DNA from: Deroplatys truncata
Lineage: Eukaryota; Arthropoda; Insecta; Mantodea; Mantidae
Direction of reading: 5' to 3'
Length of the DNA: 64,000 bases
Assembly (NCBI GenBank): GCA_030765065.1
Contig: CM060990.1
Location: 498,160,190 to 498,224,189, forward strand
Shown here: positions 1,591-59,801 of the stretch, piece by piece
Numbering within the stretch: position 1 is the first letter of the stretch
Layout: each line of letters starts with the position of its first letter
Translations under genes and position numbers: made by a program
The notes under the pieces: model-generated
The model's database searches: none
What the model saw: the letters and a program-made list of their open reading frames with translations, nothing else
Told to the model about the DNA's origin: nothing

Positions 1591-1591
1591 T

Positions 1592-16855: not shown

Positions 16856-17864
16856 ACAGGTACTTTACTATCCGAAACAACTTGAAGTTAAGAGATGACC
16901 TTACAGTTACAGCAGAAGAAAACGTCAAGGATAAATTCTGGAATGTCCAATTCCTTCTTCACTCAGTGTGGTCAGGATGTTTATCAAATGAAACATAGCC
17001 TAATATGGCCACTGATGAGCATACTATTCATTCTATGTTCATGTACCAGCAAGGTGATACATCACTGGGAAACCCAATCCTTGTGGTGCGAAGTGCTTCG
17101 TTGTCACAGCTTCCGACGGTCCTCCATTATATTTCTGCATTTATCAGGCATCTGGAGATGAAATACACACATTTCAGACAATGACATCAAGGATTTAGAT
17201 ATAGATGGAAGAGTTGTGCTGAGGTTGTCTGAAAATACACCTCCTTGCTTTACATTGTACATATTTTTTCGCCCCCATACGGTTATTAGACATTTCTCAT
17301 TACGAAACTCAGTGCCAGGCTACAGGAGCCCTTTGCAAATCCAATATACCACCAAATATTACCTTCAAATCTAAAAGTGATATGAGAAAAACTGGCCGAG
17401 GCTCACTTGGTGAGAAAGTTCGGAATGACGGATAAATATGTATCTTGAAATGATATGATAACAAACCAGTAATTCTAGCTTCATAAGTACAAGGTAAAGA
17501 TCCTGAGGATAAGTGTCAACGTTGGTCCAAAAATAAGGAATATGTTATAGTTAACTATGCTACCATAGTGAGAAATTACAATATGTTTATAAGAGGAGTT
17601 GATTTTCTGGACAGAGTGACCAGTTATTACAGCATTCGTGCCAGGACCAAGAATGGATAATTCGAATGAATATGCGTTTTTTTTATTTCGCTATAGCAGT
17701 TAGCTGGATTGAACATAGAAGACATCAAGGAATCCTAAAATCTCCAAAAAGGACACATTAAACTATTTGAGTTTCAGGATTCTGCTACAAAAATAGCTGT
17801 GTAAGTTCCCAGGTGAATGCACTCCATCTGAATATGAACCAAGTGAACCATCACAGTAGTATTA
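16856..17864 (+). pseudogene. piggyBac-family transposase pseudogene, 5' segment
   Basis: Plus-strand pieces match the piggyBac/PGBD layout in order: LKLRDDLTVTAEENVKDKFW and VQFLLHSVW (about 16,890-16,980), a degraded DDE core, GRVVLRLSENTPP (about 17,205), SDMRKTGRGSLGEKVRNDG (about 17,377), DPEDKCQRWSKNKEYVIVN, the conserved VRNYNMFIRGVDFLDRV (about 17,570) and the hydrophobic FFYFAIAVSWIEHRRHQ (about 17,680). Several stops and shifts interrupt it. The reading continues to PSEYEPSEPSQ and is then cut at 17,864 by the 17.2-kb palindromic element; the Cys-rich C-terminal domain resumes at 35,050. Confidence 0.88.
17860..17864. repeat. target-site duplication TATTA, left copy
   Basis: TATTA directly precedes GTCCCGGATGAGCC; the same five bases directly follow CCGGGAC at 35,049. 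The piggyBac frame continues across if one copy is removed. Because the site is symmetric, a 3-bp duplication (ATT) with AG...CT element ends cannot be excluded. Confidence 0.75.
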
Positions 17865-18013
17865 GTCCCGGATGAGCCAATTGTTTTAACGATAATCCTG
17901 CCGCTAGGGGCGCTCGTGTCGCTAGTGTCGCTGCGTGCGACGGCTGCGGCGGTAAGTTTGAAAAGCGCCCTGAGCGGTAGGATTATCGTTAAATCGGTTG
18001 GCTCATCCGGGAC
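17865..18013. repeat. 149-bp terminal unit, itself an inverted repeat (left end)
   Basis: Starts GTCCCGGATGAGCCAA and ends TTGGCTCATCCGGGAC. The inner parts also pair (AACGATAATCCTGCCGCT with AGCGGTAGGATTATCGTT), giving arms of about 50 bp around a GC-rich middle. This is the structure of a small MITE-like unit sitting at the very end of the large palindrome. Confidence 0.93.
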
Positions 18014-18190
18014 GAGTTGAAAGAATTGAGGAAGTGACGTGTAGTGTTTTGATTGGTTCGTTAATTTGGGGTGGGAGATGGAGGAAGGGAGATGGAGGAG
18101 TATGGAGGTCGCGTGATGGAGAGGAGCTGGGTGGCGAGGTGTTGTGTGTGCGGAGGTCGGTACTGAAATGGGGGAAAAGATGGGGAGCGA

Positions 18191-18316
18191 GGGATAAAAA
18201 GTGTAAAGGAAAGTGACGTGTGAAGTTGTGATTGGTGGGAATAAGAAGTGATGTTATTGGTGGAAAGGAGCAAATGAAGGTTGTTGATTGGTAAGAATAA
18301 GAGGGATTATGATTGG
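18191..18316 (-). promoter_or_regulatory. CCAAT/CRE/TATA-like module, left arm, outermost full copy
   Basis: Minus-strand CCAAT boxes at 18,312-18,316, 18,287-18,291, 18,256-18,260 and 18,231-18,235, then CACGTCAC at 18,213-18,220 and a TTTTTATCCC box at about 18,191. CCAAT spacing is about 25-31 bp. Mirror of the module at 34,598-34,725. Transcription would run toward the left end of the element. Confidence 0.5.
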
Positions 18317-18834
18317 TGGAAAAGAAAAAGTTGTGGGAGTGGGGTATGTTGGAGGTGATGGGAAAGGTGAGTTTTGCTAGCAGCAAGATTTGCAAAAGCC
18401 TGTCTTGAACTGATCAGCAATTTTTGAACGTCGGATGGTAGTTTTCTTGAGTGGATAGAGAGATGGGGGCGATATGAGATGCGGTGGCGAAAATGGGGAC
18501 TAGACAAGGTTGTTGAGACAAGAGGTTTAAGGACGAGGAAATTTGGAGGTTAGTGGTGAACACGGCGGTCGCAAGAGGTGGGGGTAAGGAGATGCAGTGG
18601 TGAGAATGGGAACTAAAAGAAGATGGGGGTAGCAAGAGTTTTAGAAGAGTAGATTTTGAGGTTAAAATAGTGGGAACTAAAAATGGCGGAGGGTCTACGA
18701 CAAGGAGATGCGGTGAGAACTAAACAAGATGGCGGTCGCAAGAGGAGGGTAAGGAGATTTGAGGTTACAGTACGAAAACACGAAAGGATATATTCCTACG
18801 CCAAGCAGGTCCGAAAAATAATTATGCGTGTGGT

Positions 18835-18843
18835 ACTTACCTG
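18835..18843 (-). other. splice-donor-like CAG|GTAAGT
   Basis: Plus-strand ACTTACCTG, a perfect 5' splice-site consensus on the minus strand, about 350-400 bp downstream of the promoter-like module at 19,264-19,388. Mirror of 34,071-34,079. Confidence 0.4.
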
Positions 18844-19263
18844 TTACCGGTGTGGATGCGTCACCAAAAGCGCGGCACGCGAGGCGGAAAAATAAAAGCA
18901 AACTGTTTTTGAAAATGCTTAACCAGCTTTAAGATCAACCAACATCACTACGCACTGATATACCTAGGTTTTTAAAGCGGTACAGACACCCTTTGCAGAG
19001 GCGTAATTTAACTATACCAAAAACCTGGTACTGGACCATCGTGATGGTCGCTAGCGTACGTAGGAGCAGGGTTCTCAAGCCGGTCGAAAGCGGTCAAAAA
19101 CGTGTACGACGTAGGTGTTCGCAGTAGCTGCTGTCGAGTCAACCGTCGAGGTGTGAATAAACGAGATCTGTTCTCGCCGGCAATTTGGTTCGGAGATGTG
19201 AGCAGCGGCGAGGTGTTGTCTGTGCGGAGGTCGGGACTGAAAGAGGGAAAAGATGGGGAGCGA

Positions 19264-19388
19264 GGGATAAAAAGTGTAACAGAAAGTGACGTGTGAAGTT
19301 GTGATTGGTGGGAATAAGAAGTGATTTTATTGGTGGAAAGGAGCAAATGAAAGTTGCTGATTGGTAAGAATAAGAGAGGTTATGATTG
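19264..19388 (-). promoter_or_regulatory. CCAAT/CRE/TATA-like module, left arm, second copy
   Basis: Four minus-strand CCAAT boxes (outermost 19,384-19,388), CACGTCAC at about 19,287-19,294 and a TTTTTATCCC box at about 19,264, in the same order and spacing as the other modules. Mirror of 33,525-33,655. Confidence 0.5.
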
Positions 19389-19898
19389 GTGGAAAGAAAA
19401 AGGAGTGGGGTATGTTGGAGGTGATGGGAAAGGTAAGTTTTGCTAGCAACAAGATTTGCAAAAGCCTGTCGTGAACTGATCAGCAATTTTTGAACGTTGG
19501 ATGGTAGTTTTCTTGAGTGGATAGAGAGATGGGGCGATATGAGATGCGGTGGCGAAAATGGGAACTAAACAAGGTGGTTGAGACAAGAGGTTTAAGGACG
19601 AGGAAATTTGGAGGTTAGTGGTGAACATGGCGGTCGCAAGAGGTGGGGGTAAGGAGACGCGGTGGTGAGAATGGGAACTAAAAGAAGATGGCGGTAGCAA
19701 GAGGTTAGAAGAGTAGATTTTGAGGTTAAAATAGCGGGAACTAAAAATGGCGGAGGGTCTGCGACAAGGAGATGCGGTGAGAACTAAACAAGATGGCGGA
19801 CGCAAGAGGAGGGTAAGGAGGTTTGAGGTTACAGTACCAAAACACGAAAGGATATATTCCTACGCCAAGCAGGTGCGAAAAATAATTATGCGTGTGTT

Positions 19899-19907
19899 AC
19901 TTACCTG
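19899..19907 (-). other. splice-donor-like CAG|GTAAGT
   Basis: Plus-strand ACTTACCTG, perfect donor consensus on the minus strand, downstream of the module at 20,387-20,512. Mirror of 33,007-33,015. Confidence 0.4.
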
Positions 19908-20386
19908 TTACCGGTGTGGATGCGTCACCAAAAGCGCGGCACGCGAGGCGGAAAAATAAAAGCAAACTGTTTTTGAAAATGCTTAACCAGCTTTAAGATC
20001 AACCAACATCACTACGCACTGATATACCTAGGTTTTTAAAGCGGTACAGACACCCTTTGCAGAGGCGTAATTTAACTATACCAAAACCTGGTACTGGACC
20101 ATCGTGATGGTCGCTAGCGTACGTAGGAGCAGGGTTCTCAAGCCGGTCGAAAGCGGTCAAAAACGTGTACGACGTAGGTGTTGGCAGTAGCTGCTGCGGA
20201 GGCAACCGTCGAGGTGCGAATGAACGAGATCTGTTCTTGCAGGCAATCTGGTTGAGAGATGAGAGGCGCGGTGGTAAAAATGTGAACTAAATAAGATGGC
20301 GGAGGCACGAAGTTGAGGTTAAGGAGCGGCGAGGTGTTGACTGTGCGGCGGTTGGGGTCTGAAAGAGGGGGAAAGATGGCGAACGA

Positions 20387-20512
20387 GGGATAAAAAGTAT
20401 AACAGAAAGTGACGTGTGAAGTTGTCATTGGTGGGAATAAGAAGTGATGTTATTGGTGGAAAGGAACAAATGAAAGTTGCTGATTGGCGAGAATAAGAGA
20501 GATTATGATTGG
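20387..20512 (-). promoter_or_regulatory. CCAAT/CRE/TATA-like module, left arm, third copy
   Basis: Minus-strand CCAAT boxes from 20,508-20,512 inward, CACGTCAC near 20,410 and TTTTTATCCC at about 20,387. Mirror of 32,402-32,530. Confidence 0.5.
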
Positions 20513-20640
20513 TGGAAAGAAAAAAAGGTGTGGGAGTGTGGTATGTTGGAGGTGATGGAAAAGGCAAGTTTTGCTACCAACAACATTTGCAAAAGCCTAT
20601 CCAGAACTCATCAGCAATTTTAAATAACTAGTGTTTCGGG

Positions 20641-20955
20641 GGTTTTCTCTGGTTGGTAGACGAATGCAAGCTGTTTCTACCATACTTATATTATTCGTCT
20701 TTTTCCTTTTTTTTTTTTAAAACGACTAGTTTTTTTTTTTTTTTTTTTTTTTGGGAGTTTTCTGCGGATGGTAAACAAATGCAAGCTCTTTCTGCTTTTT
20801 CATAGGTTTTCCCTGGTTGGTAGGCGTTTTCTGTACTGGTTGACGAAGGCGTTTCTAATTTTGGAGGTTTTCTCAGGTTTTTAGCGGTTGTCCCTGCCCG
20901 GTAGGCAAATGATGAAGTTTTACCTTGTCGGCGCACGGATACTAGGCACGTACTG

Positions 20956-20986
<31 letters not shown>

Positions 20987-21180
20987 GAGAGACAGACAGA
21001 CACACAGACAGGCACACACACACGGACATGTTTCCAAAAATTCTTTTTTTTTTTTTTTTTTTTTTTTTTTTGATTCAGGAGGTCTCAAAACGTGTATTTC
21101 CGGTGAAATCTCGGTATCGAATTTTTGGGCGGAATGCAATACTTCCCCTACTTACTATACGTAGTAGAGAAAGTAAAAAA
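20641..21180. repeat. poly-T, CA-repeat and dispersed-repeat tail (left arm)
   Basis: Several related boxes of the type TTTTCCCTGGTTGGTAGGCG / TTGTCCCTGCCCGGTAGGC recur, with two long T-runs (about 20,710-20,752 and 21,045-21,071), a CA/CAGA tract at 20,961-21,023 and, at 21,141-21,174, an imperfect hairpin with the core TACTATACGTAGTA. The CA-tract, T-run and hairpin order recurs at 22,070-22,240, as in 3' ends of dispersed arthropod repeats. Confidence 0.7.
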
Positions 21181-21391
21181 GTATTGAAAAATTTAAGGAA
21201 ATAACAAGCAATATCTCAAAAGTGTACTATCTTGTTTTCAAGGGTTTTCCAGATCGGCAAGCGTTAGAATACTCTTAGAGCTTTTTTCAGGTTTTTTAGC
21301 GGTTGTCCCTGGCCGGTAGGCAATTGATAAAGTTTTTCTATAACGACGTCGTTTTGGCTTGTGGCGCACGGTTCCTAGGCACGTACTCGCG

Positions 21392-21448
<57 letters not shown>

Positions 21449-23870
21449 ATAGTAGCGTATAAAAAAACTGATTTGTTACACTCACATAACTTTCTCTACT
21501 CTTGTACAATCTAATTGGTAGCTTTTAAGCGATAGTCAAATATTTTAACGCTGGTTGCTATGTGGCGAATTCCATTCTGTTTGCATGTTCAGGACATAAA
21601 AAAAATGAATAAACGAATTTGAGAAAAAGTATAAGTATTGGAAAATTTAAGGAAATAACAAGCAATATCTCGAAAACGGTTCACTCAACAAAAGAAACGT
21701 ATATGACATAAGTTGTGTATTTTAACGCGATCTACATTTTTTGTGTAGTAAAATTTTGTCTATCTCTTATGGTTTACCAGTTATGCAAAAAAGTCGTTCA
21801 CAATGAAGAATATTTTTGGAGACATTCCCAGAAAATTCGAGATATACATTTTATTTGACATGACAATATCTTAAACATATTATGTTTTAATCAAAATCGT
21901 TAGAGCCGTTTTTGAGAAAATTAAAATTTTCGAAAAATGTTCCATGTAAAGGGTAGTCTGGGGTGGGGGGATTTTCTTGAAAACCTTCGTGTCGCATCTC
22001 TGGAAGATACTGAACCTAAATACCAAGTTTGGTGTTTATCCGACTGTTCGTTTTTGAGTTATGCTGTTCACAGACACACAGACACACAGACAGACACACA
22101 CACGGACATGTTTCCAAAAATGCTTTTTTTTTTTGGATTCAGAGATTCTCAAAACATGTATTTCCAGTGAAATCTCGGTAACGAATTTTTGGGTGGAATG
22201 CAATACTTCCCCTACTTACTATACGTAGTAGAGAAAGTAAAAATGAATAACGCATTTGAGAAAAAGTATAAGTATTGGAAAATTTAAAGGAAATAACAAG
22301 CAATATCTCGAAATACGGTTCACTCAACAAAATAAATGTATATGGCATAAGTTGTGTATTTTAACGCGATCTACATTTTTTGTGTAGCAAACTTTTGTCT
22401 ATCTCTTACGGTTTATCAGTTATGAAAAAGTCGTTCACAATGAAGAATTCTTTTGGAGACATTCCCAGAAAATTCGAGATATACATTTCATTTCTCTCGA
22501 CATTATCTTAAATATATGATATTTTCATCAAAATCGTTAGAGCCATTTTTTAATACAAAGAGAACGGGATTTTACAAGTGAAACAGTACTGTGATAACGA
22601 TACCACTGAAACAAAAAAAAAAATCTGATGTGTAACACTCACATGACTTTCTCAACTCTTGTACAAAGTATTTTTACAAACGCTTATTCCCCATCTAGTT
22701 CATGTTAATCGAGATAAACATTTGCAAAATCTATTTTATTGCTAATTTTCTTGTATAAAAAAAAAATCTGATGTGTAACACTCACATGACGTTCTCTACT
22801 CTTGTACAAAGTATTTTTACAAACGCTTATGCTCCATCTAGTTCATGTTAATCGAGAAAAACATTTGCAAACTCTATTTTATTGCTAATTTTCTTGTAGA
22901 TGTAGGGGAAAATATATTTACAAGGGGAATATAGAAAAACAGTAGCCTTTAAGCACATACATATCTCTTAATAGCTGGTTGCTATGTGCAACACCATTCT
23001 TTTTGCCACAGATTAATACTGTTTGCATATCAAAGACAAAAAAAAATGAATAACGAAGTCCCATTTGAGAAAATAAATATTGGAAAATTAACAAACAATA
23101 TCTCGAAAACGGTTCACTCAACAACAAAAATGTATATTACATAAGATGTGTATTTTAACGCGATCTACATTTTTTGTGTAGTAAAATTTTGTCTATCTCT
23201 TACGGTTTTTCAGTTATGAAAAAGACGTTCACAATGAAGAATACTTTTGGAGACATTCCCAGAAAATTCGAGATATACATTTCATTTCTCACGACATTAT
23301 ATTAAACATACGATATTTTTCATCAAAATCGTTAGAGCCATTTTTTTTTTAATACAAAGAGAACGGGATTTCACAAGTGAAACAGTACTGTGATAACGAT
23401 ACCAACAAAACTAATTATTATTCACCCACTGAAACACATAAAAAAAATCTGATGTGTAACACTCACATGACTTTTCTCATCTCTTGTACAAAGTATTTTT
23501 ACAAACGCTTATTCCCCATCTAGTTCATGTTAATCGAGATAAACATTTGCAAACTCTGTTTTATTGCTAATTTTGTTGTAGATGTAGGGAAAATATATTT
23601 ACAAGGGGAATATAGAAAAACAGTAGCCTTTAAGCACATACATATCTCTTAATAGCTGGTTGCTATGTGCAGTACCATTCTTTTTGCCACAGATTAATAC
23701 TCTTTGCATATCAAAGACAAAAAAAAAATGAATAACGAATTCCCATTTGAGAAAATAACTATTGGAAAATTTAAGTAAATAACAAGCAATATCTCGAAAA
23801 CGGTTCACTCAACAATAAAGATGTATATGACATAAGTTGTGTATTTTAACGCGATCTACATACTTTCGTA
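21181..23870. repeat. four diverged copies of a ~0.6-0.8-kb repeat (left arm)
   Basis: The string GCAATATCTCGAAAACGG (or close variants) followed by TTCACTCAACA...ATTTTAACGCGATCTACAT appears at about 21,663, 22,296, 23,094 and 23,783. Between copies are GACATTCCCAGAAAATTCGAGATATACATT and AATCGTTAGAGCC blocks. An alternating CG/CA tract lies at 21,388-21,444. No coding potential. Confidence 0.8.
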
Positions 23871-24329
23871 CTCACCTATAAGATATAGAGGGTAGAGGTC
23901 GTACGAACGTAGCACTTTGAGAATCTATATTCAACAGTTGGTGTTACTCCTTAGAAAGGAAGTATCTGCTGATTTTTATTTAATTCTTTACATTTTACAT
24001 AGCACGTATGCACTGGCACAACACAAAAGCACTACACACAATACTCAGTTTTAATATTTGCACTAATAACATCAGGAATAACTGAAGTCTGCAAACAGTC
24101 ATTTCCCATGTGCAGCCTTACGTACAGAAAACGTGTGTGGCTGATCTATGTGTAAAAAGAGCCTGAGAGCGGATGTACGTCAGCGGTAAAATCTTTTAAA
24201 TGCATTTTTATTGGCGATGGTAGAAATCGTGCAGTGGTGGATCGTGAAAATTCATATAAATGGATGTATCACCTCATAATAAGCCTCTATATACCAAGAA
24301 TATTGAGTTTTTAAAAAGTCAGCAACTGT
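23871..24329. other. unique-looking segment of the left arm
   Basis: No ORF or repeat. On the minus strand a donor-like ATAG|GTGAGTAC is present (plus-strand mirror at about 29,044-29,055), so this could be a captured exon edge. Confidence 0.4.
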
Positions 24330-25885
24330 ACCTGTGTTTCTATACGTGAACGTCAGATGGCAGCTTCGATACGTGTCCACGGAGACCTTAGTGCTAGGCA
24401 ACTGTACCTCTGTTTCTATACGTGAACGGCAGATTGCAGCTTCGATACGTGTCCACGGAGACCTTAGTGCTAGGCAACTGTACCTCTGTTTCTATACGTG
24501 AACGGCAGATTGCAGCTTCGATACGTGTCCACGGAGACCTTAGTGCTAGGCAACTGCACCTCTGTTTCTATACGTGAACGGCAGATTGCAGCTTCGATAC
24601 GTGTCCACGGAGACCTTAGCGCTAGGCAACTGCACCTCTGTTTCTATACGTGAACGGCAGATTGCAGCTTCGATACGTGTCCACGGAGACCTTAGTGCTA
24701 GGCAACTGTACCTCTGTTTCTATACGTGAACGGCAGATTGCAGCTTCGATACGTGTCCACGGAGACCTTAGTGCTAGGCAACTGTACCTCTGTTTCTATA
24801 CGTGAACGGCAGATTGCAGCTTCGATACGTGTCCACGGAGACCTTAGTGCTAGGCAACTGCACCTCTGTTTCTATACGTGAACGGCAGATTGCAGCTTCG
24901 ATACGTATCCACGGAGACCTTAGTGCTAGGCAACTGCACCTCTGTTTCTTTACGTGAACGGCAGATTGCAGCTTCAATACGTGTCCACGGAGACCTTAGT
25001 GCTAGGCAACTGTACCTCTGTTTCTATACGTGAACGGGAGATTGCAGCTTCGATACGTGTCCACGGAGACCTTAGTGCTAGGCAACTGCACCTCTGTTTC
25101 TATACGTGAACGTCAGATTGCAGCTTCGATACGTGTCCACGGAGACCTTAGTGCTAGGCAACTGCACCTCTGTTTCTATACGTGAACGGCAGATTGCAGC
25201 TTCGATACGTATCCACGGGGACCTTAGTGCTAGGGAACTGCACCTCTGTTTGTATACGTGAACGGCAGATTGCAGCTTCAATACGTGTACACGGAGACCT
25301 TAGTGCTAGGCAGCTGTACCTCTGTTTCTATACGTGAACGGCAGATTGCAGCTTCGATACGTGTCCACGGAGATCTTAGTGCTAGGCAGCTATACCTGTT
25401 TCTATACGTCAACGGCAGATTGCAGCTTCGATACGTGTTCACGGAGACCTTAGTGCTAGGCAACTGTACCTGTGTTTCTATACGTGTCCACGGAGACCTT
25501 AGTGCTAGACAACTGTACCTCTGTTTCTATACGTGAACGGCAGATTGCAGCTTCAATACGTGTCCACGGAGACCTTAGTGCTAGTGCTAGGCAACTATAC
25601 CTCTGTTTCTATACGTGAACGGCAGATTGCAGGTTCGATACGTGTCCACGGAGATCTTAGTGCTAGGCAACTATACCTGTTTCTATACGTGAACGGCAGA
25701 TTGCAGCTTCGATACGTGTCCACGGAGACCTTAGTGCTAGGCAACTGTACCTGTGTTTCTATACGTGAACGTCAGATGGCAGCTTCGATACGTGTCCACG
25801 GAGACCTTAGTGTTAGGCAACTGTACCTCTGTTTCTATACGTGAACGGCAGATTGCAGCTTCGATACGTGTCCACGGAGACCTTT
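24330..25885. repeat. 76-bp tandem array, left arm, about 20 copies
   Basis: Unit begins CAGCTTCGATACGTGTCCAC; successive starts at 24,361 and 24,437 give a period of 76 bp. Most copies differ by one or two bases; late copies carry small deletions and one CTAGTG duplication (about 25,575). The period is not a multiple of three, so apparent frames rotate. Mirror array at 27,038-28,593. Confidence 0.97.
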
Positions 25886-26448
25886 CGCTTCAGGTGACAA
25901 AATAACACTAGGCACTTGTGTGCCGTGGTGTAAGCCGCAATCACGGTATTGGTAGCGTGGATCTCCTTGGGGCTCTCCTCGGAGTTACCTCAACACCACG
26001 TACATGACCTGGTTCGTCACGGGTACGCAGGTCTGCACTACCACTTCCTCGGCGTTGAGCAGGCCCAGGAGGCGATCGTACCGGTACACCAGCTAGCACG
26101 TGGACATGTTATCGCGCTGTGGTGTTGCGTGTGCGAGGTATGGAAACTCAAGGACGCAAAACATGCACGACCGAGGGTTAAAAAGCAGAACAAGTAGTGA
26201 CGTGGAGCGTTGTGATTGGTGTAAATAAGACGATCTCTGATAGGTGGACAAATTGAAATAACGTGATGTGATAGGCGAAAATAAAATCAAAGGTGATTGG
26301 ATGAAAAATGACGAGAAGGAATTAGCGGTGAATTTGTGAACTAAGATGGCGAAGATTTTTTTTTTTTTAAAAAAAAAGGATAATATAAGTACGGCAACTG
26401 TAACGGTTTACGGCAAACGCGCGCCGCGCAATGCGTCACGCCCGGGCA
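25886..26448. other. GC-richer centre of the palindrome, left side
   Basis: Higher GC than the rest of the arm between about 25,925 and 26,160, where several frames are open on both strands. An 82-codon open stretch (25,949-26,197, plus) lacks an ATG start. On the minus strand a stretch ending VVLR-stop has a strong preference for G/C at third positions. This could be a captured piece of a host or viral gene; I do not recognise it. The inner part returns to CCAAT/CRE/YY1-like motifs. Confidence 0.5.
26174..26300 (-). promoter_or_regulatory. CCAAT/CRE module nearest the centre, left side
   Basis: Minus-strand CCAAT at 26,296-26,300 and near 26,214-26,218, CACGTCAC near 26,197-26,204 and a TTTTTAACCC box at about 26,174; AAGATGGCG lies inward at about 26,345. 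More diverged than the other modules. Confidence 0.4.
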
Positions 26449-26475
26449 ATAAAACAAAAATCATATTGAGCAAGA
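26449..26475. other. 27-bp loop at the palindrome centre
   Basis: Non-symmetric AT-rich 27 bp between GCGTCACGCCCGGGCA on the left and its near reverse complement TGCCCGGCGTGACGC on the right (one C differs). It is the only non-paired sequence at the axis. Confidence 0.9.
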
Positions 26476-27037
26476 TGCCCGGCGTGACGCATTGCGCGGC
26501 GCGCGTTTGCCGTAAACCGTTACAGTTGCCGTACTTATATTATCCTTTTTTTTAAAAAAAAAAAAAATCTTCGCCATCTTAGTTCACAAATTCACCGCTA
26601 ATTCCTTCTCGTCATTTTTCATCCAATCACCTTTGATTTTATTTTCGCCTATCACATCACGTTATTTCAATTTGTCCACCTATCAGAGATCGTCTTATTT
26701 ACACCAATCACAACGCTCCACGTCACTACTTGTTCTGCTTTTTAACCCTCGGTCGTGCATGTTTTGCGTCCTTGAGTTTCCATACCTCGCACACGCAACA
26801 CCACAGCGCGATAACATGTCCACGTGCTAGCTGGTGTACCGGTACGATCGCCTCCTGGGCCTGCTCAACGCCGAGGAAGTGGTAGTGCAGACCTGCGTAC
26901 CCGTGACGAACCAGGTCATGTACGTGGTGTTGAGGTAACTCCGAGGAGAGCCCCAAGGAGATCCACGCTACCAATACCGTGATTGCGGCTTACACCACGG
27001 CACACAAGTGCCTAGTGTTATTTTGTCACCTGAAGCG
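26476..27037. other. GC-richer centre of the palindrome, right side
   Basis: Mirror of 25,886-26,448. On the plus strand, about 26,830-26,935, codons ending in G or C dominate (LVYRYDRLLGLLNAEEVV and onward to VVLR, stop TAA). It begins right after an in-frame TAG, so if coding it would be an internal exon or a gene fragment. The opposite strand is also open. Confidence 0.45.
26623..26748 (+). promoter_or_regulatory. CCAAT/CRE module nearest the centre, right side
   Basis: CCAAT at 26,623-26,627 and 26,704-26,708, CACGTCAC at 26,719-26,726, TTTTTAACCC at about 26,739; preceded by CGCCATCTT. Mirror of the left-side module and oriented outward. Confidence 0.4.
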
Positions 27038-28593
27038 AAAGGTCTCCGTGGACACGTATCGAAGCTGCAATCTGCCGTTCACGTATAGAAACAGAGGTAC
27101 AGTTGCCTAACACTAAGGTCTCCGTGGACACGTATCGAAGCTGCCATCTGACGTTCACGTATAGAAACACAGGTACAGTTGCCTAGCACTAAGGTCTCCG
27201 TGGACACGTATCGAAGCTGCAATCTGCCGTTCACGTATAGAAACAGGTATAGTTGCCTAGCACTAAGATCTCCGTGGACACGTATCGAACCTGCAATCTG
27301 CCGTTCACGTATAGAAACAGAGGTATAGTTGCCTAGCACTAGCACTAAGGTCTCCGTGGACACGTATTGAAGCTGCAATCTGCCGTTCACGTATAGAAAC
27401 AGAGGTACAGTTGTCTAGCACTAAGGTCTCCGTGGACACGTATAGAAACACAGGTACAGTTGCCTAGCACTAAGGTCTCCGTGAACACGTATCGAAGCTG
27501 CAATCTGCCGTTGACGTATAGAAACAGGTATAGCTGCCTAGCACTAAGATCTCCGTGGACACGTATCGAAGCTGCAATCTGCCGTTCACGTATAGAAACA
27601 GAGGTACAGCTGCCTAGCACTAAGGTCTCCGTGTACACGTATTGAAGCTGCAATCTGCCGTTCACGTATACAAACAGAGGTGCAGTTCCCTAGCACTAAG
27701 GTCCCCGTGGATACGTATCGAAGCTGCAATCTGCCGTTCACGTATAGAAACAGAGGTGCAGTTGCCTAGCACTAAGGTCTCCGTGGACACGTATCGAAGC
27801 TGCAATCTGACGTTCACGTATAGAAACAGAGGTGCAGTTGCCTAGCACTAAGGTCTCCGTGGACACGTATCGAAGCTGCAATCTCCCGTTCACGTATAGA
27901 AACAGAGGTACAGTTGCCTAGCACTAAGGTCTCCGTGGACACGTATTGAAGCTGCAATCTGCCGTTCACGTAAAGAAACAGAGGTGCAGTTGCCTAGCAC
28001 TAAGGTCTCCGTGGATACGTATCGAAGCTGCAATCTGCCGTTCACGTATAGAAACAGAGGTGCAGTTGCCTAGCACTAAGGTCTCCGTGGACACGTATCG
28101 AAGCTGCAATCTGCCGTTCACGTATAGAAACAGAGGTACAGTTGCCTAGCACTAAGGTCTCCGTGGACACGTATCGAAGCTGCAATCTGCCGTTCACGTA
28201 TAGAAACAGAGGTACAGTTGCCTAGCACTAAGGTCTCCGTGGACACGTATCGAAGCTGCAATCTGCCGTTCACGTATAGAAACAGAGGTGCAGTTGCCTA
28301 GCGCTAAGGTCTCCGTGGACACGTATCGAAGCTGCAATCTGCCGTTCACGTATAGAAACAGAGGTGCAGTTGCCTAGCACTAAGGTCTCCGTGGACACGT
28401 ATCGAAGCTGCAATCTGCCGTTCACGTATAGAAACAGAGGTACAGTTGCCTAGCACTAAGGTCTCCGTGGACACGTATCGAAGCTGCAATCTGCCGTTCA
28501 CGTATAGAAACAGAGGTACAGTTGCCTAGCACTAAGGTCTCCGTGGACACGTATCGAAGCTGCCATCTGACGTTCACGTATAGAAACACAGGT
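27038..28593. repeat. 76-bp tandem array, right arm, about 20 copies
   Basis: Reverse complement of the left array, with the same copy-specific variants in mirrored order (including the duplicated CACTAG at about 27,335), showing that the arms were copied as a whole and not built by independent array growth. Confidence 0.97.
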
Positions 28594-29050
28594 ACAGTTG
28601 CTGACTTTTTAAAAACTCAATATTCTTGGTATATAGAGGCTTATTATGAGGTGATACATCCATTTATATGAATTTTCACGATCCACCACTGCACGATTTC
28701 TACCATCGCCAATAAAAATGCATTTAAAAGATTTTACCGCTGACGTACATCCGCTCTCAGGCTCTTTTTACACATAGATCAGCCACACACGTTTTCTGTA
28801 CGTAAGGCTGCACATGGGAAATGACTGTTTGCAGACTTCAGTTATTCCTGATGTTATTAGTGCAAATATTAAAACTGAGTATTGTGTGTAGTGCTTTTGT
28901 GTTGTGCCAGTGCATACGTGCTATGTAAAATGTAAAGAATTAAATAAAAATCAGCAGATACTTCCTTTCTAAGGAGTAACACCAACTGTTGAATATAGAT
29001 TCTCAAAGTGCTACGTTCGTACGACCTCTACCCTCTATATCTTATAGGTG
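28594..29050. other. unique-looking segment of the right arm
   Basis: Mirror of 23,871-24,329. An AATAAA-containing run is present near 28,940, and a donor-like ATAG|GTGAGTAC ends the segment. No ORF. Confidence 0.4.
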
Positions 29051-31475
29051 AGTACGAAAGTATGTAGATCGCGTTAAAATACACAACTTATGTCATATAC
29101 ATCTTTATTGTTGAGTGAACCGTTTTCGAGATATTGCTTGTTATTTACTTAAATTTTCCAATAGTTATTTTCTCAAATGGGAATTCGTTATTCATTTTTT
29201 TTTTTGTCTTTGATATGCAAAGAGTATTAATCTGTGGCAAAAAGAATGGTACTGCACATAGCAACCAGCTATTAAGAGATATGTATGTGCTTAAAGGCTA
29301 CTGTTTTTCTATATTCCCCTTGTAAATATATTTTCCCTACATCTACAACAAAATTAGCAATAAAACAGAGTTTGCAAATGTTTATCTCGATTAACATGAA
29401 CTAGATGGGGAATAAGCGTTTGTAAAAATACTTTGTACAAGAGATGAGAAAAGTCATGTGAGTGTTACACATCAGATTTTTTTTATGTGTTTCAGTGGGT
29501 GAATAATAATTAGTTTTGTTGGTATCGTTATCACAGTACTGTTTCACTTGTGAAATCCCGTTCTCTTTGTATTAAAAAAAAAATGGCTCTAACGATTTTG
29601 ATGAAAAATATCGTATGTTTAATATAATGTCGTGAGAAATGAAATGTATATCTCGAATTTTCTGGGAATGTCTCCAAAAGTATTCTTCATTGTGAACGTC
29701 TTTTTCATAACTGAAAAACCGTAAGAGATAGACAAAATTTTACTACACAAAAAATGTAGATCGCGTTAAAATACACATCTTATGTAATATACATTTTTGT
29801 TGTTGAGTGAACCGTTTTCGAGATATTGTTTGTTAATTTTCCAATATTTATTTTCTCAAATGGGACTTCGTTATTCATTTTTTTTTGTCTTTGATATGCA
29901 AACAGTATTAATCTGTGGCAAAAAGAATGGTGTTGCACATAGCAACCAGCTATTAAGAGATATGTATGTGCTTAAAGGCTACTGTTTTTCTATATTCCCC
30001 TTGTAAATATATTTTCCCCTACATCTACAAGAAAATTAGCAATAAAATAGAGTTTGCAAATGTTTTTCTCGATTAACATGAACTAGATGGAGCATAAGCG
30101 TTTGTAAAAATACTTTGTACAAGAGTAGAGAACGTCATGTGAGTGTTACACATCAGATTTTTTTTTTATACAAGAAAATTAGCAATAAAATTGATTTTGC
30201 AAATGTTTATCTCGATTAACATGAACTAGATGGGGAATAAGCGTTTGTAAAAATACTTTGTACAAGAGTTGAGAAAGTCATGTGAGTGTTACACATCAGA
30301 TTTTTTTTTTGTTTCAGTGGTATCGTTATCACAGTACTGTTTCACTTGTAAAATCCCGTTCTCTTTGTATTAAAAAATGGCTCTAACGATTTTGATGAAA
30401 ATATCATATATTTAAGATAATGTCGAGAGAAATGAAATGTATATCTCGAATTTTCTGGGAATGTCTCCAAAAGAATTCTTCATTGTGAACGACTTTTTCA
30501 TAACTGATAAACCGTAAGAGATAGACAAAAGTTTGCTACACAAAAAATGTAGATCGCGTTAAAATACACAACTTATGCCATATACATTTATTTTGTTGAG
30601 TGAACCGTATTTCGAGATATTGCTTGTTATTTCCTTTAAATTTTCCAATACTTATACTTTTTCTCAAATGCGTTATTCATTTTTACTTTCTCTACTACGT
30701 ATAGTAAGTAGGGGAAGTATTGCATTCCACCCAAAAATTCGTTACCGAGATTTCACTGGAAATACATGTTTTGAGAATCTCTGAATCCAAAAAAAAAAAA
30801 GCATTTTTGGAAACATGTCCGTGTGTGTGTCTGTCTGTGTGTCTGTGTGTCTGTGAACAGCATAACTCAAAAACGAACAGTCGGATAAACACCAAACTTG
30901 GTATTTAGGTTCAGTATCTTCCAGAGATGCGACACGAAGGTTTTCAAGAAAATCCCCCCACCCCAGACTACCCTTTACATGGAACATTTTTCGAAAATTT
31001 TAATTTTCTCAAAAACGGCTCTAACGATTTTGATTAAAACATAATATGTTTAAGATATTGTCATGTCAAATAAAATGTATATCTCGAATTTTCTGGGAAT
31101 GTCTCCAAAAATATTCTTCATTGTGAACGACTTTTTTGCATAACTGGTAAACCATAAGAGATAGACAAAATTTTACTACACAAAAAATGTAGATCGCGTT
31201 AAAATACACAACTTATGTCATATACGTTTCTTTTGTTGAGTGAACCGTTTTCGAGATATTGCTTGTTATTTCCTTAAATTTTCCAATACTTATACTTTTT
31301 CTCAAATTCGTTTATTCATTTTTTTTATGTCCTGAACATGCAAACAGAATGGAATTCGCCACATAGCAACCAGCGTTAAAATATTTGACTATCGCTTAAA
31401 AGCTACCAATTAGATTGTACAAGAGTAGAGAAAGTTATGTGAGTGTAACAAATCAGTTTTTTTATACGCTACTAT

Positions 31476-31520
<45 letters not shown>

Positions 31521-31745
31521 CGCGCGAGTACGTGCCTAGGAACCGTGCGCCACAAGCCAAAACGACGTCGTTATAGAAAAACTTTATCAATTGCCTACCG
31601 GCCAGGGACAACCGCTAAAAAACCTGAAAAAAGCTCTAAGAGTATTCTAACGCTTGCCGATCTGGAAAACCCTTGAAAACAAGATAGTACACTTTTGAGA
31701 TATTGCTTGTTATTTCCTTAAATTTTTCAATACTTTTTTACTTTC
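29051..31745. repeat. four diverged copies of a ~0.6-0.8-kb repeat (right arm)
   Basis: Mirror of 21,181-23,870, with a GT/CG tract at 31,480-31,527 whose length differs from its left partner. Confidence 0.8.
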
Positions 31746-31841
31746 TCTACTACGTATAGTAAGTAGGGGAAGTATTGCATTCCGCCCAAAAATTCGATAC
31801 CGAGATTTCACCGGAAATACACGTTTTGAGACCTCCTGAAT

Positions 31842-31879
<38 letters not shown>

Positions 31880-32285
31880 ATTTTTGGAAACATGTCCGTG
31901 TGTGTGTGCCTGTCTGTGTGTCTGTCTGTCTCTCTGTGTGTGTGTGTGTGTGTGTGCGCGCCAGTACGTGCCTAGTATCCGTGCGCCGACAAGGTAAAAC
32001 TTCATCATTTGCCTACCGGGCAGGGACAACCGCTAAAAACCTGAGAAAACCTCCAAAATTAGAAACGCCTTCGTCAACCAGTACAGAAAACGCCTACCAA
32101 CCAGGGAAAACCTATGAAAAAGCAGAAAGAGCTTGCATTTGTTTACCATCCGCAGAAAACTCCCAAAAAAAAAAAAAAAAAAAACTAGTCATTTTAAAAA
32201 AAAAAAAGGAAAAAGACGAATAATATAAGTATGGTAGAAACAGCTTGCATTCGTCTACCAACCAGAGAAAACCCCCGAAACACTA
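31746..32285. repeat. hairpin core, GT-repeat and poly-A tracts (right arm)
   Basis: Mirror of 20,641-21,180. The homopolymer and GT runs differ in length from the left arm, as expected for slippage after the arms formed. Confidence 0.7.
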
Positions 32286-32401
32286 GTTATTTAAAATTGC
32301 TGATGAGTTCTGGATAGGCTTTTGCAAATGTTGTTGGTAGCAAAACTTGCCTTTTCCATCACCTCCAACATACCCCACTCCCACACCTTTTTTTCTTTCC
32401 A

Positions 32402-32530
32402 CCAATCATAATCTCTCTTATTCTCGCCAATCAGCAACTTTCATTTGTTCCTTTCCACCAATAACATCACTTCTTATTCCCACCAATGACAACTTCACAC
32501 GTCACTTTCTGTTATACTTTTTATCCCTCG
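32402..32530 (+). promoter_or_regulatory. CCAAT/CRE/TATA-like module, right arm, inner
   Basis: CCAAT at 32,402-32,406, 32,427-32,431, 32,458-32,462 and 32,483-32,487 (spacings 25, 31, 25), CACGTCAC at 32,498-32,505, TTTTTATCCC at about 32,518. Regular CCAAT spacing upstream of a CRE and an AT box is typical of NF-Y/CREB-type Pol II promoters. Confidence 0.5.
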
Positions 32531-33006
32531 TTCGCCATCTTTCCCCCTCTTTCAGACCCCAACCGCCGCACAGTCAACACCTCGCCGCTCCTTAACCTCA
32601 ACTTCGTGCCTCCGCCATCTTATTTAGTTCACATTTTTACCACCGCGCCTCTCATCTCTCAACCAGATTGCCTGCAAGAACAGATCTCGTTCATTCGCAC
32701 CTCGACGGTTGCCTCCGCAGCAGCTACTGCCAACACCTACGTCGTACACGTTTTTGACCGCTTTCGACCGGCTTGAGAACCCTGCTCCTACGTACGCTAG
32801 CGACCATCACGATGGTCCAGTACCAGGTTTTGGTATAGTTAAATTACGCCTCTGCAAAGGGTGTCTGTACCGCTTTAAAAACCTAGGTATATCAGTGCGT
32901 AGTGATGTTGGTTGATCTTAAAGCTGGTTAAGCATTTTCAAAAACAGTTTGCTTTTATTTTTCCGCCTCGCGTGCCGCGCTTTTGGTGACGCATCCACAC
33001 CGGTAA

Positions 33007-33015
33007 CAGGTAAGT
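33007..33015 (+). other. splice-donor-like CAG|GTAAGT
   Basis: Exact consensus, about 480 bp downstream of the module at 32,402-32,530; would end a non-coding first exon. Confidence 0.4.
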
Positions 33016-33524
33016 AACACACGCATAATTATTTTTCGCACCTGCTTGGCGTAGGAATATATCCTTTCGTGTTTTGGTACTGTAACCTCAAACCTCCTTA
33101 CCCTCCTCTTGCGTCCGCCATCTTGTTTAGTTCTCACCGCATCTCCTTGTCGCAGACCCTCCGCCATTTTTAGTTCCCGCTATTTTAACCTCAAAATCTA
33201 CTCTTCTAACCTCTTGCTACCGCCATCTTCTTTTAGTTCCCATTCTCACCACCGCGTCTCCTTACCCCCACCTCTTGCGACCGCCATGTTCACCACTAAC
33301 CTCCAAATTTCCTCGTCCTTAAACCTCTTGTCTCAACCACCTTGTTTAGTTCCCATTTTCGCCACCGCATCTCATATCGCCCCATCTCTCTATCCACTCA
33401 AGAAAACTACCATCCAACGTTCAAAAATTGCTGATCAGTTCACGACAGGCTTTTGCAAATCTTGTTGCTAGCAAAACTTACCTTTCCCATCACCTCCAAC
33501 ATACCCCACTCCTTTTTCTTTCCA

Positions 33525-33655
33525 CCAATCATAACCTCTCTTATTCTTACCAATCAGCAACTTTCATTTGCTCCTTTCCACCAATAAAATCACTTCTTAT
33601 TCCCACCAATCACAACTTCACACGTCACTTTCTGTTACACTTTTTATCCCTCGCT
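33525..33655 (+). promoter_or_regulatory. CCAAT/CRE/TATA-like module, right arm, middle
   Basis: CCAAT at 33,525-33,529, 33,550-33,554, 33,581-33,585 and 33,606-33,610 (again 25, 31, 25), CACGTCAC at 33,621-33,628, TTTTTATCCC from 33,641. Confidence 0.5.
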
Positions 33656-34070
33656 CCCCATCTTTTCCCTCTTTCAGTCCCGACCTCCGCACAGACAACA
33701 CCTCGCCGCTGCTCACATCTCCGAACCAAATTGCCGGCGAGAACAGATCTCGTTTATTCACACCTCGACGGTTGACTCGACAGCAGCTACTGCGAACACC
33801 TACGTCGTACACGTTTTTGACCGCTTTCGACCGGCTTGAGAACCCTGCTCCTACGTACGCTAGCGACCATCACGATGGTCCAGTACCAGGTTTTTGGTAT
33901 AGTTAAATTACGCCTCTGCAAAGGGTGTCTGTACCGCTTTAAAAACCTAGGTATATCAGTGCGTAGTGATGTTGGTTGATCTTAAAGCTGGTTAAGCATT
34001 TTCAAAAACAGTTTGCTTTTATTTTTCCGCCTCGCGTGCCGCGCTTTTGGTGACGCATCCACACCGGTAA

Positions 34071-34079
34071 CAGGTAAGT
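34071..34079 (+). other. splice-donor-like CAG|GTAAGT
   Basis: Exact consensus, about 420 bp downstream of the module at 33,525-33,655, in the same relative position as the donor at 33,007. Confidence 0.4.
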
Positions 34080-34597
34080 ACCACACGCATAATTATTTTT
34101 CGGACCTGCTTGGCGTAGGAATATATCCTTTCGTGTTTTCGTACTGTAACCTCAAATCTCCTTACCCTCCTCTTGCGACCGCCATCTTGTTTAGTTCTCA
34201 CCGCATCTCCTTGTCGTAGACCCTCCGCCATTTTTAGTTCCCACTATTTTAACCTCAAAATCTACTCTTCTAAAACTCTTGCTACCCCCATCTTCTTTTA
34301 GTTCCCATTCTCACCACTGCATCTCCTTACCCCCACCTCTTGCGACCGCCGTGTTCACCACTAACCTCCAAATTTCCTCGTCCTTAAACCTCTTGTCTCA
34401 ACAACCTTGTCTAGTCCCCATTTTCGCCACCGCATCTCATATCGCCCCCATCTCTCTATCCACTCAAGAAAACTACCATCCGACGTTCAAAAATTGCTGA
34501 TCAGTTCAAGACAGGCTTTTGCAAATCTTGCTGCTAGCAAAACTCACCTTTCCCATCACCTCCAACATACCCCACTCCCACAACTTTTTCTTTTCCA

Positions 34598-34725
34598 CCA
34601 ATCATAATCCCTCTTATTCTTACCAATCAACAACCTTCATTTGCTCCTTTCCACCAATAACATCACTTCTTATTCCCACCAATCACAACTTCACACGTCA
34701 CTTTCCTTTACACTTTTTATCCCTC
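34598..34725 (+). promoter_or_regulatory. CCAAT/CRE/TATA-like module, right arm, outer
   Basis: CCAAT at 34,598-34,602, 34,623-34,627, 34,654-34,658 and 34,679-34,683, CACGTCAC at 34,694-34,701, TTTTTATCCC from about 34,714. A further CCAAT and CACGTCAC pair lies at about 34,858-34,881, close to the terminal unit. Confidence 0.5.
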
Positions 34726-34900
34726 GCTCCCCATCTTTTCCCCCATTTCAGTACCGACCTCCGCACAGACAACACCTCGCCACCCAGCTCCTCTCCATCA
34801 CGCGACCTCCATACTCCTCCATCTCCCTTCCTCCATCTCCCACCCCAAATTAACGAACCAATCAAAACACTACACGTCACTTCCTCAATTCTTTCAACTC

Positions 34901-35049
34901 GTCCCGGATGAGCCAACCGATTTAACGATAATCCTACCGCTCAGGGCGCTTTTCAAACTTACCGCCGCAGCCGTCGCACGCAGCGACACTAGCGACACGA
35001 GCGCCCCTAGCGGCAGGATTATCGTTAAAACAATTGGCTCATCCGGGAC
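34901..35049. repeat. 149-bp terminal unit, itself an inverted repeat (right end)
   Basis: Reverse complement of 17,865-18,013: starts GTCCCGGATGAGCCAA and ends TTGGCTCATCCGGGAC, directly followed by TATTA. Confidence 0.93.
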
Positions 35050-35054
35050 TATTA
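35050..35054. repeat. target-site duplication TATTA, right copy
   Basis: Right-hand partner of 17,860-17,864. With one copy removed, the target reads AGTAGTATTACTACT, a near-perfect palindrome, inside the piggyBac frame. Confidence 0.75.
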
Positions 35055-35290
35055 CTACTCATCACTCACCCCAAAATGCAGGTATAATGCAAAAACTCCT
35101 CTACCGTTTAGTTTTTTGAGCACAAAAAAATGTTATGCATTTCCCTGAAATTCCCTCACCAGGAACAAAAATCGCTATGGAATGCCGGGCTGTAAAGGCA
35201 ATTGTAAAATAATTAGGTGTACCAAGTGTAAAGTTAGTATGTGTATGCTGGAGGAAAGACAGTGCTTCAAACTTTTCCATCAACCCTGAT
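35050..35290 (+). pseudogene. piggyBac-family transposase pseudogene, C-terminal Cys-rich segment
   Basis: Continues the frame cut at 17,864 (SSLTPK...NAKTPLP) and, after a shift, reaches NRYGMPGCKGNCKIIRCTKC followed by VSMCML and CFKLFHQP-stop. Paired cysteines ending in a CFxxFH motif are the C-terminal zinc-binding domain of piggyBac transposases. Same strand and order as the 5' segment, so the 17.2-kb element lies between two parts of one gene. Confidence 0.87.
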
Positions 35291-38560: not shown

Positions 38561-39079
38561 TTATTTATCATTCTTAGTCTTACACCAATCACATTTTACT
38601 AAAGATGAAATCTGCTTCAGCAACACATTGTTTTGCATCAGATAGCCATGAAATACCGAGCATGACATGCTTTTCAAATTATATTGAACCATCGGGATTG
38701 CTCCAATGGATTTAATTTTTAACCTATTCCTGTCATCTGTCCATTGTGCATTTATAAGGGAGAAAATCATTTCCATCAATGCATTATGGGCAGGCAAACA
38801 GAAATAGAATTGAGCAATCTTTAATAGTTCTGAATATTGCTCACTGTTCTTACAAGAACTGAAAAATTCCACCCATTTGCCAGTAGCTAGTTTTTGTATG
38901 AAATTACCGCCAGAGTGGGACTCATTCAGTTTTACTTTTACAAAGTTTATTAAACACACCGATTGGTTGAATGCCAATGAGCCATCAACGTTGTAACCAT
39001 GCTTCATAAATATGTAACAATGCCTTCTGTATGCCCACCCCAGGTTGATGTTTCTTTCAACAGCAACCAATTGAAACAC
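38561..39079 (-). pseudogene. hAT-type transposase C-terminal dimerisation region (172-codon open frame)
   Basis: Uninterrupted minus-strand frame from just after a TGA to its stop near 38,561; there is no ATG at its start (it would begin GTG). The diagnostic part is YSELLKIAQFYFCLPAHNAL, then MEMIFSLINAQWTDDRNRLK, the hAT C-terminal dimerisation signature (P-x-S/H-N-A-x-x-E-x-x-F-S-x-x-N-x-x-W-x-x-x-R-N-R-L), followed by SMSCSVFHGYL and a short tail. The N-terminal zinc finger and catalytic core are missing or unrecognisable upstream. It could be an exon of a domesticated hAT-derived gene, but isolation among dead transposons favours a relic. Confidence 0.75.
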
Positions 39080-40129
39080 TTGAGATCAGTGAAAGAATAT
39101 AACCACTTTTATAAATAATCAAGACAAGCGATAGATATAGAAATTTGTTGCTTCTTGTTCAAAAGTTGTTACAATGGCTGAGTTATCTATGTATTATAAA
39201 ATGTCTTGCATATTAAGAGACGGAAAATTTTGGTCGTTCCTCTCTTTAATGATGTATCAACAAAATTCAATTCATTCACAACCTCAATTACACATACAAA
39301 TTCTTTATGCTCATTACAGATTTATAAAGACATGAGAGTGACAAAATAAAATAAAGAAAAGCCTTGCCAAGTGGATTCTGAGAAAACCTTAAAATTCTCC
39401 AATGCATTGGCCCTAACGGCATAGATTGAAAATATTACCTAATAATTTGAGTTGCTACATCAACATTTAAAAGACATCAGTCAGTACCAACATGTACTGA
39501 TAGACCACGAGAAGAAGGCAAGCGAGAGGAACGTGTAACATCAACACTTTCCTGCGTCCGTATCATATTTACGCTCGCCGTGTGGATACGATAAGCATGT
39601 TAGGAGGTTATAAACTACTACGCAGTGTTGTCAAGTATTCACCCACGGCAAGAGCCAATGCGTTAACACCTATTACGGCGGTTGCTGTTCTACTAGTATC
39701 AGATCTGGCAGCATGAGTGGATCATTTGCACACATAAACATATTTCGTAGTAAACAACATAGGGGTGATGGTTGTCTTGGATAAGTGGAAACAGAGGGCA
39801 CTAACTCCACACATGAACACGGTGTGTCACTAGTTGTACTTTTGCGGGAAAGGCGAATTTTCTGATTGGCTGTTTCAAGTTTCGAAGTTCGTAACGAACT
39901 AAATGGCAGGCGCGAAGAAAGGAACCATCTTAGATTTTTATAGCTGGAAGTTTTCGTCCGAAGTTTTTTCACCAGGAACAAAGCCGAGACGGTAATAATA
40001 CATTTACGCTATTTCTGATTGAATGTATATTTGTTGTAATATTGGTATTTTCTATTAACTTCAGTGATATTCGTAGAATGAGGTAGAAAACTGATAGGTT
40101 ATTGTGTGTAGCAACATTTTTATATAACG
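39080..40129. other. unassigned; slightly GC-richer patch at 39,500-39,980
   Basis: No recognisable gene. The 39,500-39,980 patch contains ATTGGC (reverse CCAAT) and more CpG than its surroundings and could be a promoter or first exon, but nothing specific supports that. Confidence 0.35.
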
Positions 40130-48688: not shown

Positions 48689-48694
48689 GACCTT
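48689..48694. repeat. 6-bp target duplication GACCTT, left copy
   Basis: GACCTT precedes the element; GACCTG follows it at 60,910-60,915. Uninterrupted satellite units read GACCTG, so the left copy has one later substitution. Confidence 0.7.
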
Positions 48695-49960
48695 AGGAGA
48701 ATATACAGGAGAAACCTGGCACAGAAATGCGTTTATATGGGAGAGATAGGGAAAACGAGGGTAGATGCGACTGTTCAAGGAGGAAAATGCGTTTATATGG
48801 GAGAGATAGGGACTGCGAGGGTCGATGCTAGGCTAGACAGGTGCTGAAGGAGCGGAACGTACTTTATATGAGAGAGGTGGGAAATACGCGAAGTGCTAGA
48901 CAGATATTTGAGGTATGAAGTATGCGTTTATATGGGAAAGATGTGGGAAAATGTGCACAGATAATAGGCTATACAGATGCTGAAGGAGGGTGAGATACGC
49001 TTTATACGGGAGAGATAGGGAATACGAGGAGAGATGCTAGACTAGACAGGACTTGAAGCGTAGAATATGACTTTATATGGGAGAGATAGCAAACCGAGGA
49101 GAGGTGTTAGGCTAGGAGGGTTTGAATGACAGAGTATGCGTTTATGTGGGGAGACGACGGAAACGATGGGAGTAGCAGGGTTGGAGGAGCGTTCAAGGAA
49201 AATACGTTTATCCGAGAGATAAGGAAGACGAGGCCCGATACTAGGCTAGACAGGGTCTGGAGGAGGGGAATGCGCTTTGTATGGGAGGTAGGGAATACGA
49301 GGAAAGTGCTTGGCTAGACAGAGTTTGAGGTGTGGAGTAGGCGTTTATATGGGAAAGATAGGAGAAACGTGGACAGATGATAGGCTAGATAGATACTGAA
49401 GGAGCGAATATGGCCATATATACAGGAGAGATAGGGAATGCGGGAAGACGTGATAGAGAAGACAGCACTTAATGGGTAGAATATGTCTTTTATATGGGAG
49501 AGCTAGCAAACCAAGCAGAGGTATTAGGCTAGGAGGCTTTGAATCACAGAGTACACGTTTATATGGAGACATGGAGGCAGATTCTAGGTTGAGAGAACCT
49601 TCAAGGAGGAAAATGCGTTTATATGGGGGATATAGGGAAAACGAGGGAGTTTCGAGGTAGAGCAGGGGTTGAAGGAGGGAACACCCTTAATGTGTTAGAG
49701 ATAGGGAATACGAGAAGAGGTAGTTAATTAGACTGAGGTTGAGGTGTAGGATACGCGTTTATGTGGGGAAGATATGGAAAACGGAGAGAAATACCATGCT
49801 AGGAGAGAGTTGAAGGAGGGCAAAGCACTTTATATGAAAGAGGAGGGAATGCGAGGAAAGGTGCTAATCTAGACAGAGGTTGAGGAGTAGAGTATGCGTT
49901 TATAAGGGAAAATATAGGAAAACGGAAGAGAGGCTAGGGAGATCAGTGTTCATGTATGTG
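48695..49960. repeat. subterminal 60-75-bp minisatellite, left end of the Polinton
   Basis: Diverged tandem units built on ATGCGTTTATATGGGAGAGATAGGGAAAACGAGG, sometimes with CTAGGCTAGACAGGGTTTGAGG. First spacings are about 61 then about 73 bp. Short Gly/Arg-rich frames here are not genes. Confidence 0.88.

Positions 49961-59770: not shown

Positions 59771-59801
<31 letters not shown>

Follow-up and report, generated by a model that had tools for sequence, protein, structure and literature searches.

INTRODUCTION

Protein priming is the presumed mode of Polinton replication, and Polintons may also form virions. Among protein-primed replicons, palindromic or hairpin derivatives include adenovirus SYREC and the pGKL1 hairpin plasmids, and a deletion derivative of kalilo was reportedly described by Vierula and Bertrand in 1992. 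Here, we analyze a stretch of 64,000 nucleotides from the mantis Deroplatys truncata (assembly GCA_030765065.1, contig CM060990.1, positions 498,160,190 to 498,224,189, forward strand), referred to as the window, which carries a giant palindrome, element 1. In our view, element 1 is probably a mobile element that is non-autonomous, has Maverick/Polinton-type ends, and consists in its whole body of a single inverted dimer, formed by fold-back and integrated in trans.

PMC8097293 supplies the frame for comparison. There, intact vertebrate Mavericks have 6-bp target site duplications and span 12,723 to 24,620 bp, with a mean of 16,862 bp; their commonest end is (AGT)2//(ACT)2, and such terminal repetition is expected to permit jump-back initiation of protein-primed replication. 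Terminal inverted repeats of Maverick/Polinton elements range from 46 to 1,447 bp, vertebrate Maverick modules point mostly inward, and Polinton particles have not been observed to date.

Element 1 resembles these elements in its 6-bp target duplication (best read as CATCAC), in its ends AGTAGT...ACTACT (the alternatives given in that paper being (AGT)2//(ACT)2 or (AG)3//(CT)3), and in its length of 17,205 bp, inside the 12.7- to 24.6-kb range and close to the mean (17.2 versus 16.9 kb). It differs in having an inverted repeat of ~8.6 kb around a 27-nt centre, where those repeats of 46 to 1,447 bp surround unique coding DNA, and in that, of its 72 arm frames, the 13 that were scanned yielded no recognizable gene for a polymerase, integrase, ATPase, protease, or capsid protein. 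Because the coding tests made were negative and the inverted repeat is far longer than published ones, we call element 1 a non-autonomous element with Polinton-type ends and not a Polinton.

RESULTS AND DISCUSSION

Ends and target duplication of element 1

A first-pass annotation of this stretch had placed the ends of the palindrome at GTCCCGG...CCGGGAC, with a flanking TATTA duplication, and had found no match to a known superfamily. Each of these ends lies 10 bp too far inward. The inverted repeat extends 10 bases past GTCCCGG with one mismatch (AGTAGTATTA versus AGTAGTAATA), so that element 1 occupies positions 17855 to 35059. Its left terminus, AGTAGTATTA (17855 to 17864, plus strand), contains the (AGT)2 motif as given in PMC8097293, and its right terminus, TATTACTACT (35050 to 35059, minus strand), contains (ACT)2. 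On both sides, the repeat halts exactly at 6-bp direct repeats of CATCAC (17849 to 17854 and 35060 to 35065, plus strand). With these corrected ends, a known group does offer a fit, namely, the terminal motif of Maverick/Polinton elements together with their 6-bp duplication.

Among 200,000 random position pairs in the window, a 6-bp direct repeat occurred in 84, and 11 matched in inverted orientation over 10 bp with no more than one mismatch, although these figures are not a priori, as the end motif was recognized after looking, a point that counts against our interpretation. The window holds 35 AGTAGT/ACTACT pairs spaced 100 to 40,000 bp apart, and only one of them, element 1, has identical 6-bp flanks.

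TATTA is likewise a true direct repeat at its position (5-bp direct repeats occurred in 263 of 200,000 random pairs), and it sits inside the imperfect terminal repeat. Taking it as the duplication implies an empty target, AGTAGTATTACTACT, that is a perfect 15-bp odd palindrome, such as is found at 13 of 63,986 window positions. The CATCAC reading, for its part, requires one substitution within one terminus. Since the TATTA reading needs both the palindromic target and the CATCAC repeats to be coincidental, the flanking duplication of element 1 is best read as CATCAC, and TATTA is probably not the target duplication.

The choice bears on what kind of element this is. In one alternative, GTCCCGG...CCGGGAC would be the ends of a giant foldback DNA transposon, TATTA its 5-bp duplication, and a transposase binding 41-bp or 149-bp end repeats the enzyme that moved it. 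The direct repeat just described would suit it, the symmetric target might suit a symmetric integration complex, and a 149-bp unit near each end resembles a miniature inverted-repeat transposable element (MITE) with inverted repeats of its own. Element 1 also agrees with foldback transposons in that its inverted repeats are long and leave little unique DNA between them, and it resembles the foldback elements FB, Galileo, Tc4, and the Mutator foldbacks in its very long inverted repeats, internal tandem repeats, and short or absent unique middle. The known elements of this kind are smaller, however, and the duplication length and end motif of element 1 fit a Polinton better. A foldback transposon would also have to accept the two coincidences above (13/63,986 and 84/200,000) and would leave the empty piggyBac-like site with an in-frame stop, though that gene was already damaged. 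No transposase was found among the frames scanned, and the matches listed from the foldback-element and large-palindrome literature included none to the ends of element 1. We regard this alternative as unlikely and favor Maverick/Polinton-type ends.

The interrupted relic

Element 1 interrupts a degenerate coding relic with stops and frame changes. Its left part lies at 17094 to 17854 (plus strand, start approximate), and a Cys-rich continuation at 35066 to 35286 (plus strand, end approximate). When the empty site is cut on CATCAC, the joined sequence reads ...GAACCATCAC followed directly by TCACCCC..., and EPS joins LTPKC as EPSLTPKC in one stop-free frame. With TATTA as the cutting point, the reading is EPSQ-stop-YYYSSLTPKC. 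Because the relic frame is broken by further stops to the left and right of the site, the join on CATCAC may back that duplication as supporting evidence only.

The relic itself was thought to be a piggyBac gene, and while its interruption stands, its identity is weakly supported. It matched DDE_Tnp_1_7 in Pfam at E = 0.0072, below the cut-off, and the piggyBat chain 9c0f_C at E = 0.0015, and no Pfam match was obtained for the Cys-rich right part. In a protein search with 270 candidates, a 359-aa composite had no homologue at E ≤ 1e-5, and further searches with it gave nothing at E ≤ 0.001.

Structure of the palindrome

That element 1 is a near-perfect hairpin of ~17.2 kb with a 27-nt loop was borne out. 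Self-blastn aligned the palindrome at 99.495% identity with 27 mismatches and 20 gap openings, and in a two-arm alignment the left arm (17855 to 26448, plus strand) and right arm (26476 to 35059, minus strand) differ by 6 substitutions and 7 indels, counts that exclude 6 of the 12 substitutions and 3 of the 10 gaps in the full alignment, these lying at or past 26443, where the aligned pieces overran the centre. The unpaired centre, read by eye and from the fold, is 27 nt long (26449 to 26475), and a short inverted repeat, CCGGGCA/TGCCCGG, adjoins it.

Inward from its terminus, each arm contains a 149-bp unit, two copies of a 1.07-kb direct repeat with strong G skew (18133 to 20265 in the left arm, the plus strand being G rich), diverged repeats, a 76-bp tandem array (24322 to 25884, plus strand, and 27039 to 28601, minus strand), and a GC-rich central stem. 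The 149-bp units, GTCCCGGATGAGCCAA ... TTGGCTCATCCGGGAC, lie 10 bp from the ends (17865 to 18013, plus strand; 34901 to 35049, minus strand), show no differences from each other, and themselves fold as near-perfect hairpins, a feature not reported in the first-pass annotation. We considered whether this unit is a separately inserted MITE and rejected the idea, as the sequence at its inner border, GAGTTG, is not a copy of the outer flank, so that no separate duplication around the unit is seen. Neither the end repeat nor the 76-bp repeat had an exact match in viral_contigs, and blastn (E ≤ 1e-3) found no homology between the arms of element 1 and the rest of the window, including the second palindrome described below.

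So symmetric a structure calls for an assembly or library artefact to be weighed, in which a single-arm element became chimeric by fold-back or amplification and was stitched to the right flank. The near identity of the arms, the very short loop, and the placement of all 7 indels within mono- or dinucleotide runs are what such an artefact would leave. The substitutions (18146, 20539, 20723, 21411, 22732, and 26369) are less easily explained in this way, as 4 of the 6 lie away from simple runs, 21411 and 26369 being on run borders. The flanks are not mirrored either, with identical positions outward at only 3 of 20 and 41 of 200, which agrees with the earlier argument against a simple fold-back artefact, and the boundaries are marked by a 6-bp duplication and by an end motif that is already known. 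The second palindrome, whose arms are only ~94% and ~89% identical and which has its own duplication, is also hard to account for by a read artefact. An artefact is, in our estimation, quite unlikely.

No gene was recognized inside element 1 within the frames tested, in line with the first-pass annotation. The longest open frame wholly within an arm encodes 141 aa, a length equaled or exceeded in 135 of 200 block shuffles. The arms hold 72 frames of at least 55 aa, and the 13 scanned against Pfam gave only matches below the cut-off, the best being DUF4183 (E = 0.021). No RNA family matched at the gathering threshold anywhere in the window. As a discrete inserted element without a recognizable gene, element 1 was probably moved in trans.

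A second palindrome in the same window

The window contains another palindrome with its own duplication, which the earlier annotation had not mentioned. Element 2 (48694 to 60908; 12,215 bp) is older; by self-blastn its arms align as two blocks, at ~94% and ~89% identity, and the left arm alone has a segment of several hundred bases close to its outer end. It breaks a tandem array of 436-bp units, and the 6-bp duplication TGACCT borders it on each side (48688 to 48693 and 60909 to 60914, plus strand). Two short patterns picked out seven intact units of this array. Five of them contain the empty site, TATATGACCTGTT, exactly, in a gapless alignment across the joined site; of the other two, one has two mismatches at this site and one has a 5-base insertion just before TGACCT. 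The array lies at 46660 to 48693 and 60909 to 64000, with copies mostly 74 to 84% alike, and the centre of element 2 (54634 to 55132) is a non-palindromic segment of ~500 bp, with two similar direct copies by eye, on the 5' side of the polymerase-like frame.

Element 2 differs from element 1 in having more diverged arms, different ends, and pieces resembling polymerase B. Matches to PF03175 (polymerase B) were obtained in 3 of 10 scanned frames, across both arms, with E values of 0.0004 to 0.005. They correspond to one piece in the left arm (52042 to 52638, minus strand) and two pieces in different frames in the right arm (56729 to 57746, plus strand). In a protein search with 49 candidates, one of these pieces had 26 homologues at E ≤ 1e-5, and 8 of the 26 carry PF03175; it had no match in viral_contigs. 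The polymerase-like sequence includes the stretch YMDTDSF, which we take to be polymerase B motif C. That two giant palindromes share one window, both flanked by a 6-bp duplication and one of them containing pieces that resemble polymerase B, is the best local support for linking the palindromes to a Polinton-type life cycle.

An open frame at 1577 to 2098 (plus strand) with an internal duplication matched Adeno_PX, an adenovirus core protein, above the cut-off (E = 2.2e-7). From its sequence, this is perhaps a Polinton- or adintovirus-like relic, and it adds to the Polinton-like neighborhood of the palindromes.

Origin of element 1

Our preferred interpretation, a non-autonomous inverted dimer with Maverick/Polinton-type ends, rests on the extended inverted repeat, the AGTAGT/ACTACT ends, the CATCAC duplication, the absence of a gene in the tested frames, the continuity of the interrupted frame, and the nearby element 2. 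It suggests a symmetric parasite of a Maverick/Polinton-type element and not a new transposon superfamily. In such a scheme, a linear precursor with one Polinton end would have folded back during protein-primed, strand-displacing synthesis, perhaps primed at CCGGGCA/TGCCCGG beside the 27-nt loop. The product would be a symmetric molecule that has one and the same origin at either end and arms of repeat-rich DNA. It could replicate by jump-back on AGT AGT, using the polymerase of a helper Polinton, and be inserted by the retroviral-type integrase of that helper. Because copying one arm from the other in each round would keep the arms identical, the few differences between them would date from after insertion.

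The parallels known to us are partial. Adenovirus SYREC, the pGKL1 hairpin plasmids, and reportedly the kalilo derivative are symmetric molecules that bear the same replicon end twice and arise from protein-primed linear DNA, as would be the case for element 1. Those are extrachromosomal or in virions, whereas element 1 is integrated with a 6-bp duplication. We found no paper on palindromic or non-autonomous Polintons among the open-licence matches listed, and Repbase may contain non-autonomous entries. The available part of PMC6431247 uses the words "Polinton" and "nonautonomous" and has no mention of non-autonomous Polintons.

The symmetry could also have arisen in place, had a single-arm element inserted first and been made palindromic later in the chromosome by origin-dependent inverted-repeat amplification or gene conversion. 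Inverted dimers do arise at short interrupted inverted repeats in yeast, according to PMC4689423, and the centre of element 1 has just such a short inverted repeat beside its 27-nt loop. Yet this route is not expected to leave termini that match and a single 6-bp duplication precisely where the palindrome stops on each side, which makes it highly improbable next to an element that was already a dimer when it integrated.

Several observations weigh against a Polinton-type origin, in addition to the late recognition of the end motif noted above. We know of no Polinton in which a nested 149-bp hairpin is a feature. The 10 added terminal bases include one mismatch, a higher rate than in the arms, and TATTA, too, is a direct repeat at its coordinates. 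Matches to integrase, ATPase, and capsid were absent among the 30 window frames scanned, which are a small share of all frames. Element 1 is known from a single copy, and a helper with the same ends is hypothetical. As for element 2, its ends are not AGTAGT, blastn found no DNA common to it and the element 1 arms, and all its PF03175 matches are below the family cut-off. Furthermore, its polymerase-like pieces run outward from the centre, whereas the modules of vertebrate Mavericks point mostly inward in PMC8097293. The end motif published there is that of vertebrates.

Other features of the window

A 21-bp tandem array of ~50 copies occupies positions 1 to 1045 and reaches the window edge. 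At 38564 to 39085 (minus strand), there is a weak match to the hAT dimerization domain, below the cut-off (E = 0.0021).

Implications

A broader idea, which we put forward tentatively and hold to be possible but rather doubtful, is that animal genomes harbor symmetric Polinton satellites: gene-less head-to-head palindromes of packageable length, with two identical protein-primed origins, that perhaps travel in Polinton virions and integrate anew, leaving 6-bp duplications. On this view, element 1 would be one such satellite, and element 2 a palindromic form with polymerase remains.

If our interpretation of element 1 is correct, an inverted-dimer derivative that integrated with Polinton-type ends would preserve protein-primed replication as a genomic fossil, recording both the fold-back of a displaced strand and jump-back ends, and would resemble the palindromic derivatives of adenovirus and linear plasmids. 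It would also mean that Polintons can mobilize large gene-less DNA in trans and that some giant palindromes are mobile elements and not assembly faults.

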